A stretch of DNA of 52,708 bases from Nitrospinaceae bacterium (GCA_029261695.1 JAJDAV010000028.1:1-52708), one strand, 5' to 3'; shown: positions 1,110 through 33,319, counted from the stretch's first letter. Numbers and translations are program-made. The notes: generated by a model not told the origin, from the letters alone.

Positions 1110-3302
1110 ATGAAAGTAGCTGTTATTTATAATAAACAAAAGGATGCCGAAGGTGTCTTAAATGTTTTCGGCATGCAAAATCAGGAAACCTATAATCCCC
1201 AAACAGTTGAACGGGTAGCCAGTGCTCTTGAAAAGGGTGGGCATAACGTTCGCATCATCGACGGTAATATTAACGTCATCCAGCAACTCCAGGACTTTAT
1301 GCCCAGGGTGGTTCAGGGGGAACAACCGGGAATGGTTTTCAATATGGCATACGGTCTTCAAGGAGTCAGCCGTTATACCCATATGCCTTCATTACTAGAA
1401 ATGCTGGGAGTGCCCTATGTAGGCTCCAGCCCTGCCGGTCATGGCATTGCTCTCGACAAAGTAACCACAAAAGTTATGGTGCAAGCCGCAGGGTTGCCGA
1501 CATCCCCCTATTGGGTATTTTACGATGCGAAACAAATTCCTGACGACCTGCCCTACCCTGTTATCACCAAACCAAAAATGGAAGCGGTGTCTCTCGGAAT
1601 AGAAGTGGTTCACAGTAAAGCCGACCTCGAAATTCTGATCGCTAAGCTGGTAGAAGAATTTCATCAACCCATTTTAGTGGAACAATTCATTCCGGGACGG
1701 GAGTTTGCTATCGGTCTAATCGGAAACAAAGACCCTGAAGTTTTTCCATTACTGGAAATAGATCTGGCAGGAAACCCCAACGCCATCCAGAGTTTGGAAG
1801 ACAAGCTTAGAAAGCCAAAGGAAAAAATCTGTCCCGCAAATCTTGACGAAAACTTAGCCAACGAACTCCGCAGATTGACAAAAGAGACCGCAAAAGTTTT
1901 AGGAATCTATGATTTTTGCCGGGTCGATTATCGACTCGATGATGATGGAAACTTATACATCCTGGAATTGAATTCAATGGCTAGCCTTGGCTTGACCGGG
2001 TCTTATGTCCACGCCGCCAAAGTTGCAGGTTACACCTTTGAATCAATGGTCAACCGCATGCTGGATGTGGCAGTCGAACGATATTTTGGTAGTCAGCAGA
2101 TGGATCAGGTTGCAGTTGAGGAACCCGAGTCTAAATCTAAAAAAGATCCTCTTAGAATTCGGTTAAGAAGTTACTTGCGAGGCAACCTTGGAACAATGGA
2201 AGATGACCTTTCCAATATGGTGGAAATCAACTCATACGTTGAAAACATAGAGGGAGTCAACTCACTAGGCAGGTGGATCTCGAATAAACTTGGAGCAATA
2301 GGTTTTAATCGCCACGTATATTCCCGCGCTGAGTTTGGTAATATTTTGTATCTCACCAATCATATGGATGAAAAAAATGATGTGTTGATTGTTGGAAATA
2401 TGGATAACCCGATTGATTTTGAAGATTTCAATTCCTATCAGGAAGAAAAGGGCCGCATATATGGAACGGGAGTAGCTCGTGGTAAAGGTGGAATCGCCGT
2501 ATTGCTCGGTGCGCTTAAAGCCTTGCGATATACCCGGACTTTACGAAAGGTTAAGGTTGGGATTCTCCTTATCCCCGATGAATCTTATGGGGAACGATCT
2601 TCTAAACCAGTAATCGATGAACTATCGAAGAAGTCGAAGTATATTCTAGGGCTAAGCGGTGCAGGCTTGAGTGGAGAAATCATGACCTCATGTTCCGGTA
2701 CTTTACGATATGAAATCGAAATAAACCGCCGCCAAAATAAACAAGGGCTCAAGTCTTCAACAGAAACCAGTGACCCCATTCTTTATGCGTCTCAAAAAAT
2801 CAACTCCCTTAGAAAACTAAACTACGAGTCAGATGGAATTTTCATCACGATCACAGGCTTGCAAACCAAGGGTATGGAAGATCAACCTACTTACCATGCG
2901 GCCTTGTCATTTGTAATTCGCTATCGCAATCCAGATCAACGAGTCAGACTTGAAGAACAAGTAAACCAAATCTTTTCATCCAAATCACAAGACAACATTA
3001 AGGTGCATGTAACAAAAAGACCACAGAGCAAACCCTTCTTGGAAAATGAAAAGACGCTTAATTTTTATGAGCAAGTTGAAAAAGTAGCCAAGTTAGTTGA
3101 AACACGAATCAAGAAATCTGAAAACAGTATCGTTTCATGCTTATCTAATATCGGTGAAAATATTCCTGCCTTGGATGGCCTCGGCCCTGTTACAGGTGGC
3201 TACGGCACAAACAACGAACATGTCGTGCGCGACAGCTTGATTGACCGAAGTGTTCTTCTTGCATATCTCATATATTTGTCCTCAAAGAATTTTGATATAT
3301 GA
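1110..3302 (+). CDS. Fusion protein: D-Ala-D-Ala-ligase-like ATP-grasp domain (N-terminal) plus M20 peptidase-like domain (C-terminal, degenerate metal-site motifs)
   Basis: ATP-grasp features (GVPYVGSSPAGHGIALDKVTTK, PILVEQFIPGREFAIGLIG, FCRVDYRLDDDGNLYILELNSMASL); C-terminal half has the M20 layout (VLIVGNMDNP...GRIYGTGVARGKGGIAVLLGALKAL...LLIPDESYGE). Confidence 0.85.
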   Translation: MKVAVIYNKQKDAEGVLNVFGMQNQETYNPQTVERVASALEKGGHNVRIIDGNINVIQQLQDFMPRVVQGEQPGMVFNMAYGLQGVSRYTHMPSLLEMLGVPYVGSSPAGHGIALDKVTTKVMVQAAGLPTSPYWVFYDAKQIPDDLPYPVITKPKMEAVSLGIEVVHSKADLEILIAKLVEEFHQPILVEQFIPGREFAIGLIGNKDPEVFPLLEIDLAGNPNAIQSLEDKLRKPKEKICPANLDENLANELRRLTKETAKVLGIYDFCRVDYRLDDDGNLYILELNSMASLGLTGSYVHAAKVAGYTFESMVNRMLDVAVERYFGSQQMDQVAVEEPESKSKKDPLRIRLRSYLRGNLGTMEDDLSNMVEINSYVENIEGVNSLGRWISNKLGAIGFNRHVYSRAEFGNILYLTNHMDEKNDVLIVGNMDNPIDFEDFNSYQEEKGRIYGTGVARGKGGIAVLLGALKALRYTRTLRKVKVGILLIPDESYGERSSKPVIDELSKKSKYILGLSGAGLSGEIMTSCSGTLRYEIEINRRQNKQGLKSSTETSDPILYASQKINSLRKLNYESDGIFITITGLQTKGMEDQPTYHAALSFVIRYRNPDQRVRLEEQVNQIFSSKSQDNIKVHVTKRPQSKPFLENEKTLNFYEQVEKVAKLVETRIKKSENSIVSCLSNIGENIPALDGLGPVTGGYGTNNEHVVRDSLIDRSVLLAYLIYLSSKNFDI

Positions 3303-4930
3303 AACTAGGAAATATCGAGGGCAAATTTTCTCCCACTGAAAATAGCAAGTGTGCAGTATCTGATGGAGGCATGGTATCCACCGCTTTTCCTGAAGCCACT
3401 CAAGCCGGTGTTGAGTTGTTACGGCAAGGGGGAAATGCCGTAGATGCAGCCTGTGCAGCTGCATTTGCTTTAAGTATTTGTGAACCACAAGCCAGTGGGC
3501 TGGGTGGGCAATCCACAGCAATCCTTCATTTTAAAGGCAACACCATCGCCTTGGATGGGTCCAGCCGAGTTCCCTCACTCGCACATATTGATCGCATTGA
3601 CAAGAAAACTCATAGGTTTCAAGGTTACAAAGCCACCACCGTTCCCAGCACTCCTGCTGTTTTGGGTTATCTGCATTTCCGCTACGGAAAACTGGATTGG
3701 TCTGAAATTTTAAAACCAGCCATTCGAATCGCCAGAGAAGGTTACCAGATCACCCAATTGCAACATGATCTTCAAAAACGTGAAGCAGAAAAATTCCTTA
3801 GTATGGATTCTCTATCTGGAGCTAAATATTTCCTGAAGGAAGGACAAGTCCCATACGAGGTCGGCGACAAATTCATACAAGAGGATATGTCTGGATTGCT
3901 CGAACATATGTCCCAACATGGAGTGAAGGCTTTTTATACGGGTGACGTTGCCAAACAAATTGATGAGGACATGCGGTTCAATGAAGGATTTTTGAGGGCG
4001 GAAGACTTGGCTTTAATACCCTGGCCCGTTGAAAGAAAACCCATTCGCAGGAGTTACCGGAAAGTAAAAATTTTCACTTGCCCCCCTCCGGGATCAGGAA
4101 GAACTCTGCTTCTTGTTTTGCAAATGATGAAAAATATGCCCTCAAAATTTTTCAAGAATCCCACACCGAAAATGTATCACTTTTTAGCTGAAACTTTTCG
4201 AAAAGGATTGCTCAATCATAAGGAACGCCCCTTTGATCCAAATATATATCCACAACTTCCTCACGACAAAAAGATTCTCAGTCTTGATTTCGCAAGAGAA
4301 CTTTCGTCCACTATCCGTGATGATATTGATCCCACACTGCCATTGACTGAACTTTTCACCTTAAACAATGACACCACCCATTTATCCGCTATGGATTCAG
4401 AGGGAAATGCTATTGGGATTACCCAGTCGATTGAACTGGTATATGGATCAAAAGTGGCAGCACGAGGATTAGGGTTTTTATATAATAATTATATGAGTTC
4501 TCTCGACACCACTGATCCATCTCATCCTTACTACTTGAGACCCAATGCTATTCCGTGGAGTTCAGTAGCGCCTATCATTGCCTTTCATAACAACCAACCT
4601 TGGATGGTAGCTGGAAGCCCTGGAAGTGAACGGATATTTTCTGCAACGAGCCAGTTTCTTTCACATATTATTGACGGTGACCAGTCTATTGGCGAAGCAA
4701 TGTTAAGGCCAAGAATGCATTGCTCCGTGGGTGGCAAGTTGTCATTAGAAGCGGAACGATTTGATCCTGCCATCGTAGATTATTTGAAGGCAGTAGGTTA
4801 TAAAATTGATAAAAGAGAACCCTATTCGTTTTACCTGGGTGCAATCCACGCCGTCCTAAAGTCCCAGACTACCGGTCAGTTTCAAGGTGTGGCTGAGATC
4901 CGCAGAGACGGAACAGCCGCAGGCCCCTGA
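3299..4930 (+). CDS. Gamma-glutamyltranspeptidase family protein
   Basis: Typical N-terminal GGT motif (GGNAVDAACAAAFALSICEPQASGLGGQ) and catalytic Thr region (NNDTTHLSAMDSEGNAIGITQSI). ATGA overlap with the upstream gene. Confidence 0.92.
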   Translation: MKLGNIEGKFSPTENSKCAVSDGGMVSTAFPEATQAGVELLRQGGNAVDAACAAAFALSICEPQASGLGGQSTAILHFKGNTIALDGSSRVPSLAHIDRIDKKTHRFQGYKATTVPSTPAVLGYLHFRYGKLDWSEILKPAIRIAREGYQITQLQHDLQKREAEKFLSMDSLSGAKYFLKEGQVPYEVGDKFIQEDMSGLLEHMSQHGVKAFYTGDVAKQIDEDMRFNEGFLRAEDLALIPWPVERKPIRRSYRKVKIFTCPPPGSGRTLLLVLQMMKNMPSKFFKNPTPKMYHFLAETFRKGLLNHKERPFDPNIYPQLPHDKKILSLDFARELSSTIRDDIDPTLPLTELFTLNNDTTHLSAMDSEGNAIGITQSIELVYGSKVAARGLGFLYNNYMSSLDTTDPSHPYYLRPNAIPWSSVAPIIAFHNNQPWMVAGSPGSERIFSATSQFLSHIIDGDQSIGEAMLRPRMHCSVGGKLSLEAERFDPAIVDYLKAVGYKIDKREPYSFYLGAIHAVLKSQTTGQFQGVAEIRRDGTAAGP

Positions 4931-4933
4931 TTT

Positions 4934-5701
4934 ATGAGCAAACTTCCCGTCCTTATTTCCATACCTCATGGCGGCAGCCAAATTCCGCCCGAAATATCTG
5001 ACCGGGTTTGCATAACCCCGAAAGACCAATTTGAAGATGGGGACGCGCTAACTCAGGAAATTTATGGAATCAAAAATGAAGTTCTGGCTTATGTAGAAGG
5101 AAATATTGCCAGAGCATTTTTAGATTTGAATCGTGACGTCAATGACCGGCCTCCCAAAAACCCTGATGGCGTCATAAAATCCATGACCTGCCTGGGAAAA
5201 CCTATTTATCATTCGGGCAAGGAATTGAATGATGAATTGACGCATCTACTTTTGCAAAAATATTATCACCCCTATCACGACTATCTTCGAAGCACATTGG
5301 ATTCGATGGAAGGAATCCAGTTGATGCTTGACTGTCATACTATGGAAGCCGTTGGCCCAGAAATATCACCAGATCCTGGAAATACACGACCGAAGTTTTG
5401 CCTAGGAAGTAATTTTGGGAATAGCTGTCCAGACGAAATAGTTCAGCGCATGGCCGATTGCATTAGTAATGCTTTTGAATTGAACAAAGAAGATGTGGTA
5501 ATAGACAAGCCCTTTGCAGGTGGACACATTACTCGAACCTATGGGAACAAACCTGTTCCTTGCATTCAAATCGAAATGAGCCGGGCTCTTTATCTATCCG
5601 ATCCTTGGTTCGACAGAGACAAACTTAAGGTCACACCCATGCGATTAAAACAATTACAGCAATGTTTTAAGAACACCTTAAATATGTTTTTTAAAAAATA
5701 G
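4934..5701 (+). CDS. N-formylglutamate amidohydrolase family protein
   Basis: ISIPHGGSQIPPEI, FLDLNRDVNDRP, LDCHTM and QIEMSRALY motifs; starts 3 nt after the GGT stop. Confidence 0.88.
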   Translation: MSKLPVLISIPHGGSQIPPEISDRVCITPKDQFEDGDALTQEIYGIKNEVLAYVEGNIARAFLDLNRDVNDRPPKNPDGVIKSMTCLGKPIYHSGKELNDELTHLLLQKYYHPYHDYLRSTLDSMEGIQLMLDCHTMEAVGPEISPDPGNTRPKFCLGSNFGNSCPDEIVQRMADCISNAFELNKEDVVIDKPFAGGHITRTYGNKPVPCIQIEMSRALYLSDPWFDRDKLKVTPMRLKQLQQCFKNTLNMFFKK

Positions 5702-5707
5702 AAAAGC

Positions 5708-6370
5708 TCAGACAGACTTCACGGTCAGTTCGGGGTGGAGTTGTTCGCGCAGTTGGCCTTGAATGTATTTTAAGGTTCCGCTGGTAGAGGTTGGGCAACT
5801 ACCACAGGCACCTTGATAATGGATACTTACTTCGTTGCCTTCGATGCCTTTTAATTCGACACCGCCGCCGTCTTTGGCAAGGTTGGCTCGAATCGAACGG
5901 TTGAGGACCATTTCAATTCCCTGCAATTTCTTTTCGTTTTCCAGTTTCTGGAAGTTCACAACATCTACTTCACTCAATTGGATTTTTTCTTCTGCCTGAT
6001 AAACGGTTACTGTTTCATCGATGCTTTTCCAGACACGATCTTTTAACGGAATCCAACTTGTTTTATCCTCTTTCGTCACGGTGATAAAATTTTCCATGAC
6101 GTAAACGTTTATCACCCCAGGCTTTTCGAACAAGGCGGCTGCCATCTTGTCGTCTTTAGCTTCCTGCTTGCTGGAAAAGGAAGCGTTTCCGTTATCAAGA
6201 ATCACGGCGTTAATTACAAACTGCAAAGCGTTCGGGTTAGGAGTCTCGCGAGTTCGCACCACTTTCAAAGCCTTGTTTAAACTTGGTTTTGCTTTGGGCT
6301 TCGGTTTGGATTTCGCCGTTGTTTTTTCGTTTATTTTTGCCTGAATGGCAAGGACTTCACTGATCTTCAC
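5708..6370 (-). CDS. NifU-like / Nfu Fe-S scaffold protein with Nfu N-terminal domain
   Basis: Nfu_N motif (RETPNPNALQFVIN...) and C-terminal NifU motif GACGSCPTSTSGTLKYI. Confidence 0.9.
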   Translation of the reverse strand: MKISEVLAIQAKINEKTTAKSKPKPKAKPSLNKALKVVRTRETPNPNALQFVINAVILDNGNASFSSKQEAKDDKMAAALFEKPGVINVYVMENFITVTKEDKTSWIPLKDRVWKSIDETVTVYQAEEKIQLSEVDVVNFQKLENEKKLQGIEMVLNRSIRANLAKDGGGVELKGIEGNEVSIHYQGACGSCPTSTSGTLKYIQGQLREQLHPELTVKSV

Positions 6371-29767: not shown

Positions 29768-32700
29768 ATGAAAAATACCACCTCAGTTCTTGTTGGAATT
29801 ATTCTTTATCTCCTAATCCCCGTAAATTTATCTTTCGCTTCTATATTAGAAATCAACAATTCAGAAAAACAAGGGTCTCTCTTTCGTTTTGATCCGTTTT
29901 GGAAACAGAAATCCGGTCCTTTATTTACTAAAGAAAAGGACAGCAGTATCTCCTTACACGTTTTAGGAGCCCACTTATCTTTCCCTCCAGTTTTAACTTC
30001 AGATTACCCAATAATCATCAAAACTAAAAATGGTACGGTGAAACAATTTTTGAAAGAAGAAGGAACTTACAAAGTCGATCTTGCGGGCCGCTACCTGATT
30101 TACAAAGGCAAAAGCAAATCCATTCTCTATCGTTATGACAGTAAAAAGAAAGAATTGCGCGAATTTGTTTACCTACCAGAAAAAAATTCTCTAGATTCTG
30201 GAGATTCTGTTATTCGCTGGCGGTTCCAAGGTGGCAAGCTAAAAGCCAAAGAGGATGGCAGTATTGCCCTAATCAAGACTGAAGCCAAACTTGGAATTAG
30301 GGCCCGGGAAATTTCTGACAACAGTATGGAAATACGCATTAATCGGTTTCTTAACCAGCAATTTGGAGAATTAGCGGCCAAAACTTTATCTGGGAAAACC
30401 CTGTTTACAATTCCTAAGCCCATGTACATAGATGCATCGGGCAGAGAATACCACCGCGAAATTTTTTATCAAATTCAAACAGACAATAAGAACCCCTCTC
30501 TTAATGAGGTGGACAATATTCTTCAATTGGTTCTTCCTGATTCGCAGAACAAATCATTCCCTCTATGGGTCGACCCCACAATTAAATTTGCGGAAGTAAG
30601 CCCGATCATTCTCAATGGAAGAAGAGCAGGGGATCAATTTGGTTACTCCGTTGCCTCGGCAGGAGATTTTAATAGTGATGGGAAGGATGATGTTATCGTC
30701 GGTGTTCCCTTTGCTGATAAAAACGGTCTCTCTTCAGGTAGCGCGTTTATATTTTTTGGCGGTAAAACGGGAACTGTGGAAAACCCCAACGCAAAAGCAG
30801 ATGTGGCACTTCATGGCTTAAAGGCATCCGGGCAATTTGGTTTCTCAGTTTCTTCTGCGGGTGACTTCAATGGCGATGGAGTGAATGACGTCATCGTTGG
30901 TTCCTATGGAAATGATGATAACGGCACAGACTCTGGCAGTGCTTATATATACCTTGGCCGAAACAACCCTCGCAAACGACTTCGCCCAAACTATACTTTT
31001 TTCGGGGAAAAAGCATATGAACATTTTGGTTTCTCAGTTGCTTCTGCGGGTGACTTCAATGGTGATGGTAGGGATGATGTTGTAATTGGATCTCGGTTGG
31101 ACGACAGTAATGGTGCCAATGCCGGAAGCGCATCGGTTTTTCTAGGTCAAAGAAGGCCAAGATGGTCAGGGGCTTTAATGGGGATATCGAGTTTTCAAAG
31201 CACACGCAAAATCACACGCAAGAAATGGACGGTTTACGGAAAAAACAGAAAAGATCAATTGGGTTTTTCCGTCTCCTCGGCGGGAGATTTCAACGGCGAT
31301 GGGTTGGATGATATTATCGTGGGAGCTCCTAATGAAAGCAGCAACGGGGTTGAATCAGGAAGCGCATATCTCTTTTTTGGAGGAAAATCAGGATCAACCA
31401 ATGACCCTGATGCAGCGGCCGATTTGGTCATTCGCGGGGAGGCTGCAGGGAATAGGCTGGGATATTCCGTCTCTTCAGCAGGAGATTTTAATGGCGACGG
31501 GCTGGGTGATATTATCGTGGGAGCCCCTTTTGACAACAAGTACGGAAATTCTTCAGGAAGTGCATTTTTAATTTTTGGGGATTCCAATCTCACTACCCCG
31601 CCATACCTTTACCGGTTGAGTGGGGAAGACCGTCAAAATGGTAGATTTGGACATTCCGTCGCCTCAGCGGGAGATTATAACGGAGATGGCAAAGATGATT
31701 TAATAATCGGTGCAGCTTATGATTACTTTCAGGCCTCGGCCACAGGCAAAGGCAAGGCGTTCATTTATTTTGGAACAGATCCTTCTTTCCTAAGCAATTT
31801 ACCAGATGTGGTGCTCCACGGCCCGCTGTATCAGATCGGATTGGGAGGACATTCAGCAATTGAATTTGGATATTCCGTTGCAGCAGCGGGAGATTTTAAT
31901 GGCGACGGGTTAGCTGACGTTATCGTTGGAGCCCCTCATGAGAACAGTGGTGGGCCTTATTCTGGAGGAAGTGCTTTTATTTCATATGGCCGCTATAACG
32001 GCCCCTATCGTGCAGCATTGCAAGGTCGTGGACCACAGGATGAATTTGGATTTTCCGTGGCCTCGGCGGGTGATTTCAATGGCGACGGGCTGAGTGATGT
32101 CATTATCGGTGCTTACAATGATCACCAAGCAGGTGCCGCATATATTTTTTTAGGAGGCAGTAGCCTGGGAGTTCCAGACACTACTTTCCTAGGGCAAAAT
32201 GACCATGATTGGTTTGGGTATTCTGTTTCTTCTGCAGGGGACTTTAACGGCGATGGTATGGATGACGTGATCATAGGTGCCCCTCATAATAATTACAGAG
32301 GAACCTTTTCAGGCAGTACATATATTTTCTTTGGAAAACAAACCGGAATAATTAACACCCCAGATATCAATGCGGATATAGTCCTTCGCGGTCTACGTTC
32401 TGGTGATCAGTTTGGCATTTCGGTTTCCAGTGCCGGAAATTTCAACGGCGATGCATGGGATGATGTGATTGTCGGTGCCTGGCAGGATGATAGAAAAAAC
32501 GTAAATGCCGGAAGTGCCTCTGTCTACTTTGGAGGCATCCACCCCGATGTCTTGGCCGATGTAGTTTTTTTAGGTCAGGATTCAGAGGATATTTTTGGCA
32601 AATCTGTTTCTTCCGGTGATTTCAATGGCGACGGGAAAAGTGATGTGCTAATTGGCGCCCCTTATGACGACAACAACGGTTCGGCCTCTGGAAGTGCTTT

Positions 32701-33319
32701 TATTTTTTATGGAGGTATAACAGGCCTATTTACCAACCCCGACAACGATGCAAATGTTGTTTTCCGGGGAAAAACAGATGGTGATTGGTTTGGGTATTCT
32801 GTCTCTTCGGCAGGCGACTTTGACGGCGACGGCAAAGATGATGTCCTTATCGGCGCAATGAGAAATGATAAAAATGGATCAGACTCTGGGAGAGCTTATG
32901 TGTTTTTTGAAATAACCCCGGGGACTTATAATGATCCGGAAGGGGCAGCCAAGATGATCTTCGGCGGACAAAGTAGAAATGATCGATTCGGTTTTTCTGT
33001 TTCTTCTGCGGGTGATTTTAACGGCGATGGCAAAGATGATGTAGTCATCGGCAGTGTCGGGGATGACAATAATGGAATTCGGTCAGGCAGTGCTTTTATT
33101 TTCTTTGGTGGGCAAACAGGGACCCTCGACAACCCCGATACTCAAGCAGATGTTATTTTGCATGGACGAAATAAGCATGATCAATTTGGAGTTTCCGTTT
33201 CGTCAGCAGGAGATTTTAACGGCGATGGACGTGATGAGGTAATTGTCGGCGCCAGTAAAGATGATATCAATTCAACAGGCTCGGGCAGTGCCTTTATTTT
33301 TCAAAAAGGATTTCAATAG
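29768..33319 (+). CDS. Secreted FG-GAP / integrin-alpha-like beta-propeller protein with 14 repeats
   Basis: Signal peptide; 14 copies of xxFGxSVxSAGDFNGDGxxDVIVGAxxDD. Confidence 0.93.
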   Translation: MKNTTSVLVGIILYLLIPVNLSFASILEINNSEKQGSLFRFDPFWKQKSGPLFTKEKDSSISLHVLGAHLSFPPVLTSDYPIIIKTKNGTVKQFLKEEGTYKVDLAGRYLIYKGKSKSILYRYDSKKKELREFVYLPEKNSLDSGDSVIRWRFQGGKLKAKEDGSIALIKTEAKLGIRAREISDNSMEIRINRFLNQQFGELAAKTLSGKTLFTIPKPMYIDASGREYHREIFYQIQTDNKNPSLNEVDNILQLVLPDSQNKSFPLWVDPTIKFAEVSPIILNGRRAGDQFGYSVASAGDFNSDGKDDVIVGVPFADKNGLSSGSAFIFFGGKTGTVENPNAKADVALHGLKASGQFGFSVSSAGDFNGDGVNDVIVGSYGNDDNGTDSGSAYIYLGRNNPRKRLRPNYTFFGEKAYEHFGFSVASAGDFNGDGRDDVVIGSRLDDSNGANAGSASVFLGQRRPRWSGALMGISSFQSTRKITRKKWTVYGKNRKDQLGFSVSSAGDFNGDGLDDIIVGAPNESSNGVESGSAYLFFGGKSGSTNDPDAAADLVIRGEAAGNRLGYSVSSAGDFNGDGLGDIIVGAPFDNKYGNSSGSAFLIFGDSNLTTPPYLYRLSGEDRQNGRFGHSVASAGDYNGDGKDDLIIGAAYDYFQASATGKGKAFIYFGTDPSFLSNLPDVVLHGPLYQIGLGGHSAIEFGYSVAAAGDFNGDGLADVIVGAPHENSGGPYSGGSAFISYGRYNGPYRAALQGRGPQDEFGFSVASAGDFNGDGLSDVIIGAYNDHQAGAAYIFLGGSSLGVPDTTFLGQNDHDWFGYSVSSAGDFNGDGMDDVIIGAPHNNYRGTFSGSTYIFFGKQTGIINTPDINADIVLRGLRSGDQFGISVSSAGNFNGDAWDDVIVGAWQDDRKNVNAGSASVYFGGIHPDVLADVVFLGQDSEDIFGKSVSSGDFNGDGKSDVLIGAPYDDNNGSASGSAFIFYGGITGLFTNPDNDANVVFRGKTDGDWFGYSVSSAGDFDGDGKDDVLIGAMRNDKNGSDSGRAYVFFEITPGTYNDPEGAAKMIFGGQSRNDRFGFSVSSAGDFNGDGKDDVVIGSVGDDNNGIRSGSAFIFFGGQTGTLDNPDTQADVILHGRNKHDQFGVSVSSAGDFNGDGRDEVIVGASKDDINSTGSGSAFIFQKGFQ

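Follow-up and report, generated by a model that had tools for sequence, protein, structure and literature searches.

Some of the described systems closest to the locus studied here combine an ATP-grasp ligase with hydrolases. The NAGGN osmolyte cluster, which is linked to osmoadaptation, contains an ATP-grasp enzyme and a metallopeptidase family member. In P. aeruginosa, the RloABC operon encodes an ATP-grasp protein, a 7TM inactive transglutaminase and glutamate-cleaving proteases, and is tied to hypo-osmotic tolerance, and in the RimK/RimB system glutamates are added to and removed from ribosomal protein S6 (PMC12239564). Tagging has been proposed for the Anbu operon (PMC6376114).

Here we describe a three-gene cassette at positions 1110-5701 of the window (the whole stretch of DNA analysed, 52,708 nucleotides, from a Nitrospinaceae bacterium whose 3.07-Mb genome in 220 contigs was also examined). 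Among the marine nitrite oxidisers known so far, Nitrospinota rank first in abundance. That a conserved ligase/hydrolase cassette of uncharacterised function lies next to genes for Mg2+ transporters and mechanosensitive channels leads to a specific and testable claim of a missing solute or tag. A reading made earlier from the sequence alone (hereafter, the sequence-only reading) recognised no described pathway of this composition; likewise, no paper uniting ATP-grasp, GGT and FGase was found in the literature searched (the 2009 amidoligase survey lay outside this scope, and a prior mention is possible).

Gene layout

The cassette consists of three genes, all on the + strand; the list also gives the parts of the fusion gene, the predicted nucleophile and the upstream neighbour.

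145-930, + strand: MgtE-type Mg2+ transporter, 5' part lost at the contig end (Pfam MgtE 7.1e-36, plus CBS)
1110-3302, + strand: ATP-grasp/M20 fusion gene (730 aa)
1110-2105, + strand: ATP-grasp ligase half, residues 1-332, Ddl-like fold (Pfam Dala_Dala_lig_C 2.8e-29)
2160-3302, + strand: C-terminal M20 pseudo-peptidase half, residues 351-730 (Pfam Peptidase_M20 3.6e-14)
3299-4930, + strand: GGT-like Ntn (N-terminal-nucleophile) hydrolase gene (543 aa; Pfam G_glu_transpept 1.6e-108)
4373-4375, + strand: codon of Thr359 (TTHLS), predicted nucleophile and self-cleavage residue (alignment with solved GGT small-subunit chains)
4934-5701, + strand: FGase-like gene, N-formylglutamate amidohydrolase family, putative metallo-amidase (255 aa; Pfam FGase 1.2e-47)

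The stop of the fusion gene overlaps the GGT start by 4 nt (ATGA, 3299-3302) and 3 nt separate the GGT and FGase genes, so that the open reading frame coordinates and Pfam matches confirm the three same-strand genes of the sequence-only reading, with their overlap and gap. Its view of the composition also holds at the family level, at which the set comprises one amide-forming ligase and two amide hydrolases. MgtE, 180 nt from the cassette in the window, is a recurrent neighbour, and its membership of the operon is not proven; promoter and terminator scans performed no better than on shuffled sequences. Downstream, a convergent gene on the opposite strand (5708-6370), whose product reads as NifU-like, ends 7 nt past the FGase stop. 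Elsewhere, the window encodes a 1183-aa protein that consists mostly of FG-GAP repeats (29768-33319).

Conservation and spread

The fusion protein was present in 24 of the 77 Nitrospinota genomes searched, and a full-length fusion was found in 6 of 393 Planctomycetota genomes (L095-L100; 31-35% identical), a seventh match (G117) being cut by the contig end. Wherever the cassette occurs (Nitrospinota, Planctomycetota and one proteobacterium), the order is ATP-grasp/M20, GGT, FGase. Among the Nitrospinota, GGT follows the fusion in all loci with enough contig and FGase lies immediately downstream in most, being shifted by approximately 1 kb in L015, L018 and L019 and not found within approximately 6 kb downstream in L016. 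All six Planctomycetota loci have a same-strand GGT (43-46% identical) and then FGase (38-43%). The proteobacterial genome (G574) holds the trio at 67% identity on a 3.7-Mb contig, and its position as the sole carrier among 199 genomes of its order suggests acquisition by lateral transfer.

Across 23 loci, the three proteins show correlated pairwise distances (r = 0.93-0.98; 0.66-0.91 without Planctomycetota). Because the same genes recur in the same order in two distant phyla and their distances co-vary, the arrangement is not due to chance; very probably, the cassette is one conserved functional unit and therefore probably serves one pathway. The sequence-only reading had made its single-pathway claim depend on linkage in distant taxa, and this linkage was found; homologues that are never clustered, its opposite case, are contradicted. 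It might still be argued that the trio stays together by descent only and that its members act in separate pathways, as the displaced FGase genes, or that not found in the searched stretch of L016, could indicate. However, the order is the same in another phylum at the low full-length ligase identity given above, the three proteins diverge in a correlated manner and the trio seems to have been transferred laterally intact, which leaves this explanation a very slim chance.

An apparent further spread based on metagenome-assembled genome labels (L010-L012, labelled Woeseiaceae, Phycisphaerales and Planctomycetota; 80-81% identical) was not counted. L012 is a misbinned Nitrospinota contig, because a gene that flanks its cassette shares 87% identity with one from the Nitrospinota genome G024, and L010 and L011 (both 81% identical) probably are as well. 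Additional cassette-related sequences were also seen: in G008, the intact cassette is preceded, at a distance of approximately 3 kb, by a decayed duplicate, the remnant of a second ligase start with two stops (C21:10950-11148; 56-76% identical), and in L015 (6049-7800) a second GGT homologue with a signal-peptide-like N terminus, 27-28% identical to the cassette GGT, is located directly upstream of the cassette.

The ligase half

Like Ddl (E. coli DdlB, 1iow), the N-terminal half has an ATP-grasp fold and the catalytic residues for ATP and Mg: K97, K144, E187, K215, R255, D257, E270 and N272 align with DdlB K121, K154, E198, K232, R271, D273, E286 and N288, and all eight are invariant across the Nitrospinota set. 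It differs from Ddl in its fusion to M20, in its distant position in the tree and in two further features. Tyr216 of the DdlB omega loop is replaced by L233 rather than kept as Tyr or Phe, and residues 1-84 could not be aligned with Ddl; because of these two differences, the acceptor pocket is probably not that of Ddl. The NCBIfam scores are far below the Ddl cutoffs (TIGR01205, 133.5 versus 245.65 bits; NF002378, 147.5 versus 243 bits). Phylogenetically, the fusions group together (92/88) and, at 100/98, with L102 and L104 (a stand-alone proteobacterial ATP-grasp), far from the Ddl branch. The sequence evidence thus characterises the ligase half as a competent ATP-grasp enzyme whose family is not that of Ddl.

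The Ddl-like fold could point to an operon that scavenges or salvages fragments of peptidoglycan or peptides and whose ligase would join amino acids anew, and in L004 and L007 a gene with both SBP_bac_3 and transglycosylase SLT domains does separate MgtE from the cassette. That gene is limited to these two close relatives, however, genes for Mur proteins, amidases or permeases are not linked to the cassette, and the genome under study has a separate Ddl-like gene (contig C30), the product of which is 27-31% identical to the cassette ligase and far from the fusion clade in the tree. Salvage is therefore highly improbable.

Related ATP-grasp proteins were observed in other settings. In L102 (7021-9468; Planctomycetota G100), an ATP-grasp that is 43% identical to the cassette ligase is fused to a 7TM_transglut membrane domain (PF14402), a domain whose usual partner, as in RloB, is an inactive transglutaminase (PMC12239564). 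Other Nitrospinota loci (L055:5820-11299 and L056:6493-10724) have tandem pairs of Ddl-like ATP-grasp genes beside genes for lysine-2,3-aminomutase-like radical SAM and GNAT proteins, in L055 also with a GNAT-histone-deacetylase fusion. L057 (4700-10002) encodes a methyltransferase/Ddl-like ATP-grasp fusion together with an M32 carboxypeptidase, and a divergent gene there falls into one cluster with the GNAT-histone-deacetylase fusion; by sequence clustering, L058 (4128-9422) has the same arrangement, another unusual ligase-hydrolase set.

The M20 half

An AlphaFold2 (AF2) model of the M20 half alone (pLDDT 62, pTM 0.55) had carboxypeptidase G2 (CPG2; 1cg2) as its best PDB match over the whole chain (E 5.8e-20, TM 0.69), indicating that the M20 fold is complete; the model of the full fusion, built with 17 close sequences (pLDDT 42.6), was not usable. 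The active site has not been retained. In the window protein, H112 of CPG2 is replaced by N, D141 by R, E176 by S and E200 by S; in CPG2, these four residues are metal ligands, Asp141 being the bridging one, and E175 is the general base. Among relatives, the ligand positions vary and the general-base position is occupied by E, D, G, K, N or Y. The Planctomycetota M20 halves are degenerate too, although some keep the histidine of HxD, and two members that were checked fall below Pfam M20 scoring. The M20 half also diverges much faster than the ligase half (18-22% versus 45-48% identity with Planctomycetota). Given that the metal ligands are lost in every member (the final M20 His being assessed by motif alone), we are highly confident in predicting that this half is a dead pseudo-enzyme, for which we infer a binding or regulatory role. 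The ATP-grasp/M20 fusion of the sequence-only reading stands as regards the M20 fold, which both Pfam and the model recover; an enzymatic role of the M20 half is not supported.

The two hydrolases

The GGT-like protein shares with E. coli GGT (2e0w) the Ntn fold, the self-cleavage motif and the Thr nucleophile. As the sequence-only reading had it, the protein contains the motif TTHLS. In the alignment, the mature small subunit of solved GGTs starts at the first Thr of this motif (residue 359), which is kept in all members. S463 is also kept in most members. By contrast, R114 is replaced by S, Q430 by Y, D433 by S or A and G484 by S, the score lies under the TIGR00066 equivalog cutoff (328.2 versus 357.85 bits) and inspection by eye revealed no obvious signal peptide. 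Arg114 and Asp433 are substrate-binding residues of GGT, and in the variants D445A (B. subtilis) and D433N (E. coli) transpeptidation is lost while hydrolysis is kept (PMC8062742). Loss of Arg114 alone is weak evidence, because an R109S variant of B. licheniformis GGT kept 85% of its activity; Arg-to-Ser replacements are also found in GGTs of extremophiles (PMC8062742). With both residues absent, the protein is predicted to hydrolyse amides rather than to transpeptidate; it would act in the cytosol, have a changed acyl pocket and differ from classical transpeptidases.

The FGase-like protein, which carries PHGG, DCHT and IEM motifs, belongs to the Pfam family of the HutG N-formylglutamate deformylase (PF05013; 163.3 bits versus a gathering score of 28.9), but is far under the HutG equivalog cutoff (TIGR02017; 109.5 versus 278.75 bits). 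A PDB sequence search with this protein found no relative. The low HutG score, together with the missing Arg114 and Asp433 of the GGT-like protein, renders the gamma-glutamyl substrate favoured by the sequence-only reading doubtful.

These residues bear on whether the product is glutathione-like or another gamma-glutamyl compound of redox or detoxification metabolism, with the GGT-like protein a true gamma-glutamyl hydrolase. Such a role would fit the GGT family membership, and GGACT-like and dimethylargininase-like genes lie immediately upstream of the cassette in two loci (L008:242-1487 and L009:6634-7879). FGase and gamma-glutamylcyclotransferase also co-occur in chlorite-dismutase neighbourhoods that have been filed under oxidative stress (PMC9751292). 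A further replacement, N411 to E, was dropped as a sign of lost gamma-glutamyl recognition; B. subtilis GGT has Glu423 there, so that the change is not in itself a loss (PMC8062742). Against this role, Arg114 and Asp433 are replaced, the ligase is Ddl-like and not GshA or GshB, and the GGACT pair are the only redox genes that recur next to the cassette, where MgtE and mechanosensitive channels are far commoner. We regard it as unlikely.

Gene neighbourhood

MgtE and MS_channel_2nd were searched for in 22 genomes that carry the cassette, each of which gave 1-4 matches to the former and 1-9 to the latter. In 11 of these genomes an MgtE gene is found no more than 10 kb from the cassette (0.33 expected; Poisson P 9e-14), and in 7 a mechanosensitive channel gene is (0.45 expected; P 5e-7), figures that assume related genomes to be independent; grouping by genus (MgtE, 8 of 15 groups, P 2.5e-9; channels, 5 groups, P 1e-4) reduces this dependence and does not remove it. 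The two kinds of gene also cluster with each other. Their side and orientation vary by lineage and both phyla contribute, and in seven genomes (G012, G020, G036, G042, G049, G574 and G106) both MgtE and PF00924 channels are absent from the 10-kb surroundings of the cassette. Other neighbours, present at some of the loci, are genes for cation efflux, a Na+/H+ exchanger, and RimK with a RimB-type protease and an aspartoacylase.

Genes for Anbu, Alpha-E, CP-ATP-grasp and transglutaminase adjoin the cassette in L014, L018 (cut by the contig stretch) and L019, and genes of the CP-ATP-grasp and Alpha-E type do so in L016. Alpha-E is present in 17 of the 24 genomes with the cassette and in 9 of the 53 without it (Fisher P 1e-5; P 0.013 for genomes of at least 2.8 Mb only). 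Both the neighbours and the co-occurrence, along with the glutamates that RimK/RimB add to and remove from S6 and the tagging proposal for the Anbu operon, would suit a modification of proteins or peptides in which the ligase tags with amino acids and the hydrolases untag, alongside Anbu/Alpha-E or RimK/RimB. Most cassette loci, however, are without such neighbours, the GGT and FGase families are mostly small-molecule enzymes and the cassette contains no peptide substrate gene; we consider a tagging role rather improbable.

Proposed function

Beyond the observed gene set, conservation, domain states and neighbour enrichment, we infer a reaction, substrate, direction and physiology as follows. 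The cassette may be a co-inherited cytosolic make-and-break module for an amide-bonded small molecule, a glutamyl-type solute that serves turgor and cation balance (probability roughly 0.4). The ATP-grasp half would activate a carboxylate as an acyl-phosphate and then couple this with an amine. The dead M20 half would bind the acceptor or the product, probably through a C-terminal glutamyl group, and position or regulate the ligase, and the GGT-like hydrolase and FGase-like amidase would take the product apart again or remove its acyl cap. CPG2, GGT and HutG all act on glutamate derivatives, and because all three hydrolase ancestors do so, we favour a glutamyl-type solute. To judge from the neighbours, it may balance turgor and cations together with Mg2+ import by MgtE and release through mechanosensitive channels. 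A solute role in salt or ion stress is suggested because the cassette often adjoins genes for Mg2+ transport and mechanosensitive channels; for an osmotic or ionic role in general, the odds are a little short of even. The RimK/RimB and Anbu/Alpha-E gene groups beside several cassettes also speak for the proposal, as does the L102 protein, one of the ATP-grasps closest to the fusions, which has the RloB type of architecture; the operon of RloB is the one tied to hypo-osmotic tolerance in P. aeruginosa (PMC12239564). More specifically, the cassette might encode an undescribed pathway by which marine nitrite oxidisers and planctomycetes make and recycle a glutamyl-type compatible solute, with the dead CPG2-like domain as the substrate-binding part of the ligase, a tentative proposal that is on the doubtful side.

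The osmolyte repertoire of Nitrospinota (glycine betaine, ectoine and sucrose) varies among strains (PMC8026999). Cassette presence was not anticorrelated with ectoine synthase, and one cassette genome (G036) has an ectoine synthase gene; since approximately one-third of Nitrospinota carry the cassette and it does not track ectoine synthase, the cassette is not a simple osmolyte replacement. 'Ca. Nitronauta litoralis', which may carry the cassette, is cultivable in binary culture.

Comparison with known systems

RimK/RimB and RloABC resemble the cassette in combining an ATP-grasp enzyme with a hydrolase, in their glutamate chemistry and in the osmotic phenotype, which is theirs; RimK, RimB and aspartoacylase genes also lie beside some cassettes. 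RimB and RloA are, however, aspartic peptidases with no homologue within the cassette (PMC12239564). From the RloABC set of a retropepsin, a 7TM-inactive transglutaminase and an ATP-grasp, the cassette has the ATP-grasp only, and L102 is the sole case of a related ATP-grasp that carries the 7TM domain. The Anbu operon likewise pairs an ATP-grasp with an Ntn-type hydrolase and adjoins some cassettes, but its ATP-grasp is circularly permuted and its hydrolases are different (PMC6376114); its gene set (CP-ATP-grasp, Alpha-E, transglutaminase and Anbu) is found in some loci as a separate neighbouring cluster and not in the cassette. The NAGGN cluster is similar in joining an ATP-grasp with a metallopeptidase family member and differs by its asparagine-synthase-like, GNAT and M42 genes, which are absent from the cassette. 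With CPG2 and the M20A glutamate carboxypeptidases, the cassette shares the entire two-domain M20 fold in the predicted structure, but neither the metal ligands nor the general base of CPG2 is conserved; the cassette thereby offers a case of a peptidase domain recruited into a ligase, that is, for the opposite reaction.
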